Assembly: GCA_039801365.1 (NCBI GenBank)
Contig: JBDRUN010000008.1
Coordinates: 1 to 47,573 of the forward strand
Length of the DNA stretch: 47,573 bases
Reading direction: 5' to 3'
Source of the DNA: a candidate division WOR-3 bacterium
Lineage (GTDB): Bacteria > Hydrothermota > Tepidihabitantia > Tepidihabitantales > Tepidihabitantaceae
Part shown: positions 20,741-25,177 of the stretch, one piece after another
Position numbering within the stretch: the stretch's first letter is position 1
Layout of the letters: each line of letters begins with the position of its first letter
Notes under the pieces: model-generated
Told to the model about the DNA's origin: nothing
The model's database searches: none
The model's input: only the letters and a program-made list of their open reading frames with translations
Made by a program: the position numbers and the translations under genes

Positions 20741-21547
20741 TTACACCGCCAAAATCTCAAGATACAACAACGCGTGGTCAGAGTATGACTCTATCCACTT
20801 ACGCTGCTCGGCCCTATTCACAGCCTGTGGCCAGCCGCGTACGTCAACCTCAGCATCGCCGAACGTCTTGAAGCGAAGATGCCCTGCCGCCACGACCTGG
20901 TCAAGATTCGACGGTCCAGGTTTATTTTTCCCGTTCCACCAAGTAAACGGCTGGCTCTTGGAAAGTACCCTCATGCCGAACCCATCGGCGTCGGCCTGCA
21001 GCTTACGCAACTCGGTCTCCCACGAAATCGCATGATCGAACGGATACTCCATGCCCATTGTGTTCAGGTCACCAAGAAAGATGAAGTTCGGCCGCTCGGC
21101 TTCGGCCGCCTTGGCAAGGGTTGAACTGAACTTGAACGCACGCTCGAACTGGTCGTCGCGGATACCAAGCCCAATCGGCTTGCTACTGCTCTTGGTATGC
21201 AGAAACAATAACGAATAGTTCTTGCTCCCGATCAAAAGTGAAACCAGTAGCCCGGGTCGCAGAAACGTATTGCCGCTCTTGAACTCGGTACGCTGTGTGA
21301 AGAATGCAGTAATGCCGCCACGCACGCCGACCAGAGTTTCCTGGGTCTGGGTACCCTCGGTAATGTGGAACTGATACCCTGGCATCCGCTCGACCATCAT
21401 CTTGTAAACTTCCTTACCAGCGACCTCGAACAGACCGAACACATCCGGGTCCTGCTCGCCAATGAACTCCACCACTCGACCTACCCGCTCCGGCTCACCC
21501 TTGAAGTGCTCGACGTTCCATGATGCCAAACTGAAGACCTTTGTCAT
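20741..21547 (-). CDS. Endonuclease/exonuclease/phosphatase-family protein
   Basis: 268 residues from the ATG at 21547, preceded by AAGGGGATGACGTC. Landmarks of the EEP fold are present: SLASWNVEHF (Asn), DVFGLFEVAG (metal-binding Glu), LLFLHTKS, FIFLGDLNT (Asp/Asn pair), PSNLDQVVA and the C-terminal SDHALL with the catalytic Asp-His. Members cleave phosphodiester or phosphomonoester bonds in nucleic acids, lipids or nucleotides; which one applies here cannot be told. There is no signal peptide, so it is cytoplasmic. It is transcribed alone, convergent to the peptidase operon. Confidence 0.85.
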   Translation of the reverse strand: MTKVFSLASWNVEHFKGEPERVGRVVEFIGEQDPDVFGLFEVAGKEVYKMMVERMPGYQFHITEGTQTQETLVGVRGGITAFFTQRTEFKSGNTFLRPGLLVSLLIGSKNYSLLFLHTKSSSKPIGLGIRDDQFERAFKFSSTLAKAAEAERPNFIFLGDLNTMGMEYPFDHAISWETELRKLQADADGFGMRVLSKSQPFTWWNGKNKPGPSNLDQVVAAGHLRFKTFGDAEVDVRGWPQAVNRAEQRKWIESYSDHALLYLEILAV

Positions 21548-21579
21548 GACGTCATCCCCTTTCACTAAGTCAGCGCAAT

Positions 21580-21787: not shown

Positions 21788-22099
21788 ATGAGTTCTGGTC
21801 TAACTGCGACGTTCAAACCGCGGCTGAGCCCTGAAGTAAGCCGGCACCTGACAGCCTATCTGACATGGATACTAAGACCGCAACTAAGCCTACAGATCAG
21901 CCCCGCACCGACGCACCTTCTCACGTATCCGCTCAGACAGACCGTGACAGGTCATCTCAAGTCCCAGCTCATAGGGCACTTGAAATACTTTCTCACATGC
22001 TGTCTCAGTCTGGAACTAAGCTGCCGGCTGAGAAGACAGTTGAGCCTGGGTCTGAGAATCAGACTCAGATGGGGAGTCACTCCCGGGGTCACTAGGTAA
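21788..22099 (+). repeat. 26-unit degenerate 12-bp tandem array filling an open reading frame
   Basis: Cut into 12-nt units from 21788, all 26 units have A at position 4. 25 of 26 have T at position 2, 17 have C at position 1, none has T at position 3, and position 5 is G or C in 22. The consensus is CTNA(G/C) followed by seven unconserved bases. Example units: ctgagccctgaa, ctaagaccgcaa, ctcagtctggaa. The frame in phase with the units is open from ATG (unit 1) to TAA (unit 26) and reads as (L/V)-(T/S/R/K)-x-x tetrapeptides, e.g. LTAYLTWILRPQ. There is no ribosome site and no clear promoter. The conserved bases cross a codon boundary and the third position avoids T, so constraint looks nucleotide-level rather than purely protein-level. 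Function unknown. Confidence 0.75.
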
Positions 22100-22115
22100 C
22101 CCCCTGGCTATGTCC

Positions 22116-22328
22116 TCATCCACATGCCTGCCAGCGCGCCCTGCTGCGCATCATATCGTCAATCTGCGACTTATGCAACTGCCGCAGTTCTGCGGCATTC
22201 TCAGTCTGTCGCAAATAGACGCCGGACGTTGCTGCCCAGCGCTGCAACATAGCCATTTCGCTATGCGACCTCGCCAAGACCTGTTTCTCGCCTGTCCTAG
22301 AAACTAGCACTTGCCTGCCCACGCTCAA
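22116..22328 (-). CDS. Possible small hypothetical protein
   Basis: 70 codons, TTG start, no Shine-Dalgarno. The predicted protein is charged and helical in its second half (MLQRWAATSGVYLRQTENAA, then ELRQLHKSQIDDMMRSRARW), which looks more protein-like than the frames around it. No family was recognised and no promoter was found. It could be the remnant of a larger gene. Apart from this frame and the 12-bp array, the 21609-22439 stretch holds nothing that I can support. Confidence 0.25.
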   Translation of the reverse strand: MSVGRQVLVSRTGEKQVLARSHSEMAMLQRWAATSGVYLRQTENAAELRQLHKSQIDDMMRSRARWQACG

Positions 22329-22439: not shown

Positions 22440-22467
22440 TTGACAGGTGGAACCGGTGGGGTATGCT
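22440..22467 (+). promoter_or_regulatory. Promoter of the TPR/AAA+ regulator gene
   Basis: TTGACA (22440-22445), a 16-nt spacer and TATGCT (22462-22467). The ATG at 22478 is 10 nt beyond the -10 box, giving a leader of about 4 nt. The ATG at 22463 lies inside the -10 box and so could not be used from this promoter. Confidence 0.55.
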
Positions 22468-22477
22468 CGCAGTAAGC

Positions 22478-25177
22478 ATGAAGCTGCCTAGGGACACAGA
22501 ACAGAAGGTGAAGGAACTCGAGGAAAGGTTGCCCGCGACGACCTTGCCGGCTGAGCGACTCCAGATTCTCCTTGACCTTGCAAGGGAGACTTGGCTTGCT
22601 CTGCCAAGTGAAGCACGACGCTACCTGCACCGGGCAGTGGCGGAAGCAGAATCAGCCGACGAACAAGGCTACCTGTCGAGTGCCGAGAACATGTTGGCCG
22701 AAATATCACGCCGAGCCGGTGAACTGGCCGAAAGCGAGCAGCACGCAGATAGGGCGCTTGCTGCAGCCCGGGCTGCAGGCAACGCAAAGAAGGAAGCGGG
22801 TGCCGTCAATCTCAAGGGGAAACTGTTTGAGATGCGGGGCGAGTATGACCAGGCCGCGGAATGTTTCGAACAATGCCGAAGACTGTCTGAACAGGCAGGT
22901 TTCCTAGAAGGCGTGCAGGCTGCGCTCAACGAGCTGGGTGGCCTGTACGGTTTGCGCGGCCAGCCCCAGCGGGCACTGGACTGCTACCTTGAGTGCCTCA
23001 AGATCGACGATGAGCTCGGCGACAGCTACTGCATTGCCCTGCATCGCTACAACATCGGCTGGACACTAGAGCAGCTCGGCCGCTGGGAGGAAGCAGCCGA
23101 AAGCCTGTACCGGACAGTAGCTATCAGTGAGCAGCACGGGTTCCGGGACTTGATGCTCGACGCGATGAATGTGCTCGGCGAGCTTTTCTTGAAACGGGAC
23201 AACCTCGCCCGGGCAAAAGACATGTTCGGGGCGGTCGTACAGAAGGAACGGGACCAGCCCGGCTATCGAGCGCTGCTGCGGGATGCACTTGCCAATCTGG
23301 GCTTGGCGCACTTCAGGGCCGGAGAACTGGCCGCAGCCGAGAACACATATGCCGAGGCGCTTGAGATGTGCACTGAGTCCGGTGACCAGCGCGAGCGGGC
23401 GATTCTGCTCGTCCGGTTTGCCGAACTTCTCTTCGCACGCGGAAACCTTGAACGGGCTGAAGAAATGCTGAGCCAGGCTCAGGAGCTCTGCGACCGGCTG
23501 AGTCTGGCCCGGGAAAGTGCTGAGGTGCTGCGAATAAGAGGACTCATCGCCCAGGAGCGCGGTGACGCCACTGGTGCCGCCTCAAGTTTCGAACAGGCAG
23601 CCGGGAAACTGGCCGATGCTCCGGACAGCTACGAACTCGCCAGAGTAAGATTCCAGTACGGCCGATGTCTTGCCCGGTCTGGTCAACCGGAACAGGCCCG
23701 ACCACTTCTGGAGCAGGCGGCACGGACGTTCCGGCTGCTTTCAGTTGTCGCTGATGCCGAAGAAGTGAACCGGTTGCTATTTCGACTCGAAATGCCGTCT
23801 GATGCCGAAAACGCAGTACTTGGCGCTGTTGTCGGCCTGACACGGATTGGACTGGAGCCGGTATCGTTGTTCGAGCGCGCACTACGCATCATCTGCGAGG
23901 GACTGGAGTTCGACCATGCGGCCATCGTCCTGGGTGACTCGGCAGTCCTGTTGTATGGCCGGCCAGACTTAGACACTGCCGATCGGTTCAGCGGCCGGGT
24001 CGCACCGGTTGCGACCGAACGGTACGTATGGATTCCGGTGATGACCGACTGTACACCACCGGCCGGGATATATCTAGAACGGACTGAGCCTGCGTCCCGT
24101 CGGCCCAGTCCCGGCTTCCTGGTCGAGCTGATTCGGCGTTGCGCTGAGCCGATGCGGCGGCTAGCTGAGCTCCCCCTACGTCCTGAGCCGGTCGTTCGAA
24201 TTCCCAACCTGCATTACCGCGGGGTGGTCGGCCGCAACCCGAAGATGATTGAGAATCTCCGGATCGTAGCTCAGGTCGCCAGTGCGTCGGTCCCAGTGCT
24301 GGTCAAGGGTGAGAGCGGCACCGGCAAGGAACTGATTGCCCGTGCGCTGCACGACTCCAGCGTCAGAAGTGGAAAACCTTTTGTCGCGGTAAACTGCGCC
24401 GCAGTACCGGAGACACTGCTTGAGGCAGAGTTCTTTGGAGTCGAAAAAGGCGCGGCGACCGGCATTGCGCAGCGCCGGGGCAAGTTTGAACTTGCGCACG
24501 GAGGAACGATATTCTTGGACGAAATTGGCGACATGAGTCCGGCGCTCCAGGCCCGTCTACTCAGGGTACTTCAGGACAAGGTAGTCGAACGTCTGGGTGG
24601 AACTAGGCCGATTGATACCGATGTGAGAGTCGTCGCGGCCACCAACAAGAACTTGGAGGAGCTTATGCGCCGTGGAACATTCCGGCAAGACTTGTACTAC
24701 CGGCTGAACGCGGTTGAGCTGGAGGTTCCTGCGTTGCGTGACCGTAAAGAGGATATACCGGCGTTCGTGCGCTACTTTGTCACGAGCAGTAACCAGGAAT
24801 TCCACCGCAATGTCCTCGGCGTGGACGAAGCGGCGATGGCCTGTCTCATCGCATTCAACTGGCCTGGAAACATACGACAGCTGCGCCACGTCATCGAGCG
24901 AGCCGTAGTGCTCAGCAGAGCACCGGTTCTGACTACTACTGACCTTCCAGCCGAAATCTTTGCAGCCAGCACAACTGACGGACCCTGTCAGGAAAGTGAC
25001 CTGCGTACTGCCCGGCGTGCGGCTCAGAAAGCCGCGGCTGACGACTTGGAGCGCACCACGCTTGTGCAATGCCTCGAAAAGGCCAAAGGCAACGCTACTG
25101 AGGCGGCCAAGCTGGCTGGGTATTCACGGGCGCAGTTCTACCGACTGCTGCGCAAGCACAATCTGAGAACCAACTGA
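22478..25177 (+). CDS. TPR-GAF-like-AAA+ (sigma-54 activator type)-Fis regulator
   Basis: 899 residues. About 40-435: a series of tetratricopeptide repeats (GEYDQAAECFEQCRRLSEQA, GQPQRALDCYLECLKIDDEL). About 450-570: a GAF-like sensor segment. About 580-815: an AAA+ central domain with Walker A GESGTGKE, Walker B GGTIFLDEIGDM, and the conserved FRQDLYYRLNAVEL and NWPGNIRQLRHVIERAVVL. C-terminus: a Fis-type helix-turn-helix (GNATEAAKLAGYSRAQFYRL). The family hydrolyses ATP to open sigma-54 RNA polymerase. However, the GAFTGA loop that touches sigma-54 reads GAATGI here (EKGAATGIAQ), so its action may differ. TPRs in place of a receiver domain suggest control by protein partners. The gene stands alone. 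Confidence 0.9.
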   Translation: MKLPRDTEQKVKELEERLPATTLPAERLQILLDLARETWLALPSEARRYLHRAVAEAESADEQGYLSSAENMLAEISRRAGELAESEQHADRALAAARAAGNAKKEAGAVNLKGKLFEMRGEYDQAAECFEQCRRLSEQAGFLEGVQAALNELGGLYGLRGQPQRALDCYLECLKIDDELGDSYCIALHRYNIGWTLEQLGRWEEAAESLYRTVAISEQHGFRDLMLDAMNVLGELFLKRDNLARAKDMFGAVVQKERDQPGYRALLRDALANLGLAHFRAGELAAAENTYAEALEMCTESGDQRERAILLVRFAELLFARGNLERAEEMLSQAQELCDRLSLARESAEVLRIRGLIAQERGDATGAASSFEQAAGKLADAPDSYELARVRFQYGRCLARSGQPEQARPLLEQAARTFRLLSVVADAEEVNRLLFRLEMPSDAENAVLGAVVGLTRIGLEPVSLFERALRIICEGLEFDHAAIVLGDSAVLLYGRPDLDTADRFSGRVAPVATERYVWIPVMTDCTPPAGIYLERTEPASRRPSPGFLVELIRRCAEPMRRLAELPLRPEPVVRIPNLHYRGVVGRNPKMIENLRIVAQVASASVPVLVKGESGTGKELIARALHDSSVRSGKPFVAVNCAAVPETLLEAEFFGVEKGAATGIAQRRGKFELAHGGTIFLDEIGDMSPALQARLLRVLQDKVVERLGGTRPIDTDVRVVAATNKNLEELMRRGTFRQDLYYRLNAVELEVPALRDRKEDIPAFVRYFVTSSNQEFHRNVLGVDEAAMACLIAFNWPGNIRQLRHVIERAVVLSRAPVLTTTDLPAEIFAASTTDGPCQESDLRTARRAAQKAAADDLERTTLVQCLEKAKGNATEAAKLAGYSRAQFYRLLRKHNLRTN

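Follow-up and report, generated by a model that had tools for sequence, protein, structure and literature searches.

A dispersed noncoding element with a palindromic head and a one-sided, degenerate 12-bp array in a candidate division WOR-3 bacterium

The window analysed here is a 47,573-nucleotide stretch of a candidate division WOR-3 genome (contig JBDRUN010000008.1; the host genome is hereafter denoted G000), in which an array of 26 units of 12 bp, counted unit by unit, occupies the 312 bases from 21788 to 22099. The element to which the array belongs extends beyond 22099, at least to about 22180, and includes a head (22064–22103) followed by a conserved flank that continues to about 22180. 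On one side lies a gene for an endonuclease/exonuclease/phosphatase family protein (20741–21565, minus strand), which is divergent from the element; on the other, the element is adjoined by a gene (22463–25177) for a 904-residue protein with TPR, sigma-54 activator and Fis-type HTH regions, for which a search of genome contigs returned distant relatives only. T2 and A4 denote T and A at positions 2 and 4 of the unit, and N3 the base between them. The features of the element are as follows.

21788–22063, plus strand: array body of 23 units of 12 bp in which T2 and A4 are kept (from the unit count, the scan and the sister copies)
22064–22099, plus strand: the three units that close the array in register, shared with the head: CTCAGATGGGGA GTCACTCCCGGG GTCACTAGGTAA
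22071–22085, no strand assigned: head palindrome GGGGAGTCACTCCCG (consensus GGGGAGTNACTCCCC), centred on a TNA in the register of the array
22085–22103, no strand assigned: second head dyad GGGGTCACTAGGTAACCCC, with two GTNAC cores, conserved in sister copies
22100–22130, plus strand: conserved flank beginning CCCCCTGGCTATGTCC, common to most sister copies
22150–22178, minus strand: promoter-like sequence directed into the array, with a −35-like TTGCAT (22178–22173), 17 nt and a −10-like TATGAT (22155–22150), as judged from sequence
21788–22099, plus strand: open frame of 103 residues, a chance opening and not a gene

The periodicity described in the initial annotation was reproduced in full: A is present at position 4 in 26/26 units and T at position 2 in 25/26, position 3 is never T (C11/G10/A5/T0), and C is the most frequent letter at position 1 (17/26). 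The proposed core CTNAG was too long; because G is found at position 5 in only 13/26 units, the core is T-N-A, and the associated idea of CTNAG methylation sites is too unspecific, in that the copies agree at T2 and A4 but not at C1 and G5. Of the checks suggested with that description, shuffling gave best two-phase counts of at most 30 in 1000 shuffles, compared with 51/52 in the array, and autocorrelation of the array gave peaks at lags 12, 24 and 36 only. Elsewhere in the window the two-phase count does not exceed 35 among 1258 other 312-bp segments, and a motif-free scan of the window returned 21788–22099, with period 12, as its sole array, with none at periods 9–11, 13–15 or 18. The shuffles, the other window segments and the motif-free scan together exclude a chance origin of the 12-bp phasing. 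Nor is this a tandem repeat or minisatellite of the usual kind: Tandem Repeats Finder reported no row at 21788–22099, and identity between units outside T2 and A4 is about 31–35%. The period of 12 bp is shared with minisatellites, from which the array differs by its position-specific constraint and its conserved head.

That the array exactly fills an open reading frame, which had suggested a new tetrapeptide-repeat protein, is a coincidence. Homologous copies in G000 carry zero to six in-phase stops each (the terminal stop of the window copy being counted), with at least one in 13/14, a number close to that expected by chance since CTNA fixes codon 1 and A4 bars stops from codon 2; in most sister copies no frame is free of stops, and a Pfam scan of the window ORF gave no match. 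The in-phase frame is open in the window copy and in a few others, which is the observation in favour of a protein-coding repeat; against stops on this scale, we regard such a gene as next to impossible. The element is noncoding.

At least 15 interspersed copies are present in the host genome, each of about 24–28 units in strict 12-bp phase; about 14 arrays of this length were extracted as loci. The pattern (CTNA N8)x5 matches the genome 28 times compared with 0 for a reversed control, and a looser array pattern gave 197 matches compared with 19. A random 493 kb of the same genome contained five arrays of period 12 whose cores differ, and none at periods 9–11 and 13–16. Arrays with other cores lie at L251:7942–8330, L249:13593–13856, L256:3727–4054, L258:270–529 and L263:5285–5679; their cores include ACT and CTGGCC, the latter with a GGGGGAGTCACTTCCCCC head, and some of them adjoin GC-rich palindromes. 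The distal ends of the arrays face the 3′ end of a gene in 18/27 cases, compared with 41% of the ends of comparable gaps, a modest bias drawn from around 28 arrays and from mechanical ORF calls. An IS256-like transposase frame (L263:5984–7318; family judged from sequence) and a 586-bp repeat of 95% identity (L178, L179) lie near some arrays.

Alignment of the copies separates two positions of the unit from the rest. When five related copies in the host genome are compared in pairs, position 2 diverges by 5.5% and position 4 by 1.2%, compared with 21–33% elsewhere; in two groups of copies from G021 and in copies from G014 and G011 the divergence is 0–4.5% at T2 and A4 compared with 9–48% elsewhere. 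N3 is an exception: it is almost always A in G021 and G (C on the other strand) in G011, and varies freely in G000. Across the four genomes divergence therefore spans 0–5.5% at T2 and 0–4.5% at A4, and over some 300 units of the host genome T2 is present in 92% and A4 in 98%. The 12-bp phase is unbroken over about 300 bp in the arrays read, with roughly 25% substitution, and the sole intra-array indel in the best alignment is of exactly 12 bp. Since T2 and A4 are kept at fixed spacing while most of the remainder diverges, selection acts on the nucleotides themselves; the earlier suggestion of a periodic signal at the DNA or RNA level is borne out to the extent that two nucleotide positions are conserved, a result replicated in the copies of four genomes.

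The consensus unit is symmetric about N3 (r 0.60–0.96); of the 14 sets, 12 have their best centre there and the other two their second best. Its arms vary by genome, with consensus forms CGG.TNA.CCG, CGA.TNA.T(C/T)G, TGA.TNA.TC and AGGTNACCT. No covariation between the two arms was detected within units, except in G014; together with the palindromic consensus this favours a dyad on duplex DNA over hairpins. We also considered a kink model based on YR steps, given that TNA always holds TG, CA or TA; units that have lost T2 mostly have G at N3 and so contain no such step, and the model was rejected.

In the aligned copies, taken in one orientation, only one of the two ends of the element is conserved, and there the head CTCAGATGGGGAGTCACTCCCnnGGTCACTGGGTAACCCCCTG is followed by further conserved flank. 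The palindromic head of the family, GGGGAGTNACTCCCC then GTNACNGGGTNACC, is joined to the array on one side. Seven further GGGGAGTNACTCCCC loci, beyond the first 14, all have T2 phased in the register of the head on one side only, with no phased T2 on the opposite side; some of their arrays are without A4, and one of these loci is shared with the motif-free scan and one with the head-pattern search. The latter gave 12 copies in the host genome and 0 in 17 family relatives. There is also a second class of head, whose arrays keep T2 and have largely lost A4. This class (L311–L314; C42, C43, C44 and C50 of G000) adjoins the 3′ ends of genes for paralogous secreted proteins, which have a Kelch-like repeat region; the loci share 0.5–1.4 kb of homology outside the array.

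Among 147 genomes of the phylum, arrays with a TNA core and period 12 are concentrated in the order of the host and almost absent elsewhere. Those of relatives have another flanking consensus and other heads, and their occurrence is patchy within genera: in G021 about four arrays occur per 100 kb, their head being well conserved, and no array was found in 100 kb sampled from one relative. Several g4 genomes (G008, G013 and G017) were left out of the clear cases because the reversed control also scores high in them. That control (ANTC/ANT, period 12) is very high in G013, G015, G017 and G018, which indicates that other 12-bp repeats are abundant there. A blastn search for a phage or plasmid origin gave no match; in IMG/VR the head is absent, and matches to the array pattern are mostly simple or coding repeats. 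In the papers searched, nothing comparable to a degenerate 12-bp array was found.

Among the closest parallels, similar in outline, are the centromere and iteron arrays of plasmids (parC/ParR, tubC/TubR and the RepA iterons), whose tandem sites in strict register are described as assembling a dimeric, cooperatively binding protein into a superhelix. The array resembles these in its tandem, register-locked sites, on which protein would be loaded in a similar way, but it is chromosomal, has at least 15 dispersed copies without an adjacent par or rep operon, conserves two bases per unit over about 25 units, and has a one-sided head. A partition centromere is not supported, as no recurrent pair of binding protein and motor NTPase was seen among the ORFs listed around the arrays (read by sequence, with Pfam on the window neighbours only). 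The basal unwinding system of oriC, where DnaA boxes are followed on one side by DnaA-trios that each keep one or two bases, is alike in placing strong double-stranded sites before a one-sided, weakly conserved array; it differs in its period (3 bp versus 12 bp), whereas our element has many copies per genome and no DnaA boxes were noted in it. Like REP/BIME, ERIC, BOX and CIR elements, the family is multicopy, noncoding and intergenic, often beside gene ends; to our knowledge none of those contains an internal 12-bp array, and a REP/RAYT element is discounted by the absence of PF01797 (Y1 transposase) from G000 and G014. The array is likewise not a CRISPR array, having a 12-bp period and no identical repeats where a CRISPR array has near-identical repeats of about 21–47 bp with unique spacers.

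We propose, giving the reading about an even chance, that the element is a noncoding site combining a strong head with a weak array on one side of it, along which a dimeric DNA-binding protein forms a cooperative, polarised filament. The head, GGGGAGTNACTCCCC followed by GTNACNGGGTNACC, would nucleate the filament with high affinity; each 12-bp unit would be a dyad site of low affinity, for which contacts to the T and the A flanking the dyad would be essential, and one dimer would occupy every 12 bp along about 25 units. Binding, rather than an RNA product, would then be the function, and the most likely role is that of a dispersed chromosome-organising or insulating site. In support of the filament, head and array share one register, and do so on one side only in the seven further loci; the number of copies in a single phase, the constancy of T2 and A4, the symmetric consensus with arms that vary by genome, the unbroken phase, the noncoding status and the concentration in one order also count in its favour. 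Against it, neighbouring dimers would be rotated by about 50 degrees, since 12 bp is not the repeat of B-DNA; a single fixed dyad does not cover all arrays, given those of the second class that are poor in A4 and those with other cores; and the promoter-like sequence directed into the array suggests that the element may act as an RNA. Candidate partners sought by profile do not track the presence of arrays, whether RHH_1 (absent from the array-bearing genomes G014, G021 and G027), AbrB/MazE (absent from G000) or Y1_Tnp, and a search for a partner by adjacency in genomes with few copies gave ordinary neighbours only. We hold more tentatively, and at somewhat less than even chance, the wider form of this model, in which nucleation-plus-track elements are distributed order-wide on the chromosome, the head seeds a one-way filament, some 25 units are read through two base pairs each, and arm specificity co-evolves lineage by lineage.

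The main rival is an RNA gene, in which transcription from a promoter in the head would cross two GC-rich hairpins and yield about 300 nt with UNA every 12 nt; an oligomeric RNA-binding protein would use this RNA as its scaffold or sponge. Most copies retain the promoter-like region into the array (TTGCAT-17-TATGAT in the window), and in several of them the −10 is extended (TGNTATRNY); G021 heads have a conserved TTTATAAAAAGGGG directly upstream, hairpins are predicted in the head, and array RNA in the promoter direction folds somewhat better than column shuffles (mean z −1.1; 5/12 copies at −1.8 or below). This gain is weak overall and inconsistent between close copies, only 5/98 consensus pairs show compensatory change, no Rfam covariance model matched at its gathering threshold, and the dyad symmetry of the consensus is unexpected of a single-stranded motif. 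An RNA is the foremost alternative to the filament, albeit an unlikely one. Rather less probable is a non-autonomous mobile repeat of MITE- or REP-like type, whose copies would have spread by transposition and whose array would be a set of transposase-binding sites. The family is dispersed, multicopy and patchy within genera, copies in G016 are 82–96% identical over 300–890 bp, implying that they spread or exchange, and transposase genes lie near some arrays; yet G000 and G014 carry arrays without a Y1 transposase, conservation is found at one end only, and T2 and A4 are kept in old, diverged copies, unlike in decaying MITEs.

Near-identical 12-bp tandem arrays in some relatives are possible raw material for a slippage satellite, of which T2 and A4 would be functionless leftovers. 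Neutral decay would give equal divergence everywhere, whereas that at T2 and A4 is several-fold to more than twenty-fold lower in four genomes and the register between head and array is maintained, so that this origin appears very improbable. We consider least probable of the nucleic acid readings that dispersed arrays recognise each other by direct double-helix pairing through a triplet per 12 bp. In repeat-induced point mutation (RIP) of Neurospora the relevant signal is triplets spaced 11–12 bp apart (PMC4858203), and the arrays have this geometry, in that copies which have otherwise diverged share about three bases in every 12 bp. RIP, however, is fungal and rests on homology recognition, whereas our element has a fixed dyad motif and a head; palindromy is no requirement of a code for pairing, such a code leaves the head unexplained, and in G000 the base at N3 varies freely.

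In dozens of copies spread over the order, selection keeps two of every twelve bases along 300 bp and leaves most of the others nearly free, a combination for which we know of, and found, no counterpart among described repeats, RNAs or binding arrays. Should the filament model hold, they would represent a new kind of chromosome-architecture or insulator system in bacteria; a filament-forming protein that reads them would constitute a new mode of marking and organising the bacterial chromosome, and the naturally varied arms would make its recognition code testable. If the product is instead an RNA, periodic noncoding RNAs of this sort would form a new class. With regard to secondary structure, hairpins at the level of the unit were rejected, covariation of the arms being confined to G014, and so was a single long hairpin of the whole array, for which the best complementarity (0.41–0.49) is near the in-phase expectation. 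Unlike most of the others, two G014 arrays (L223 and L224) fold far better than column shuffles on both strands, with z of about −5 to −6.
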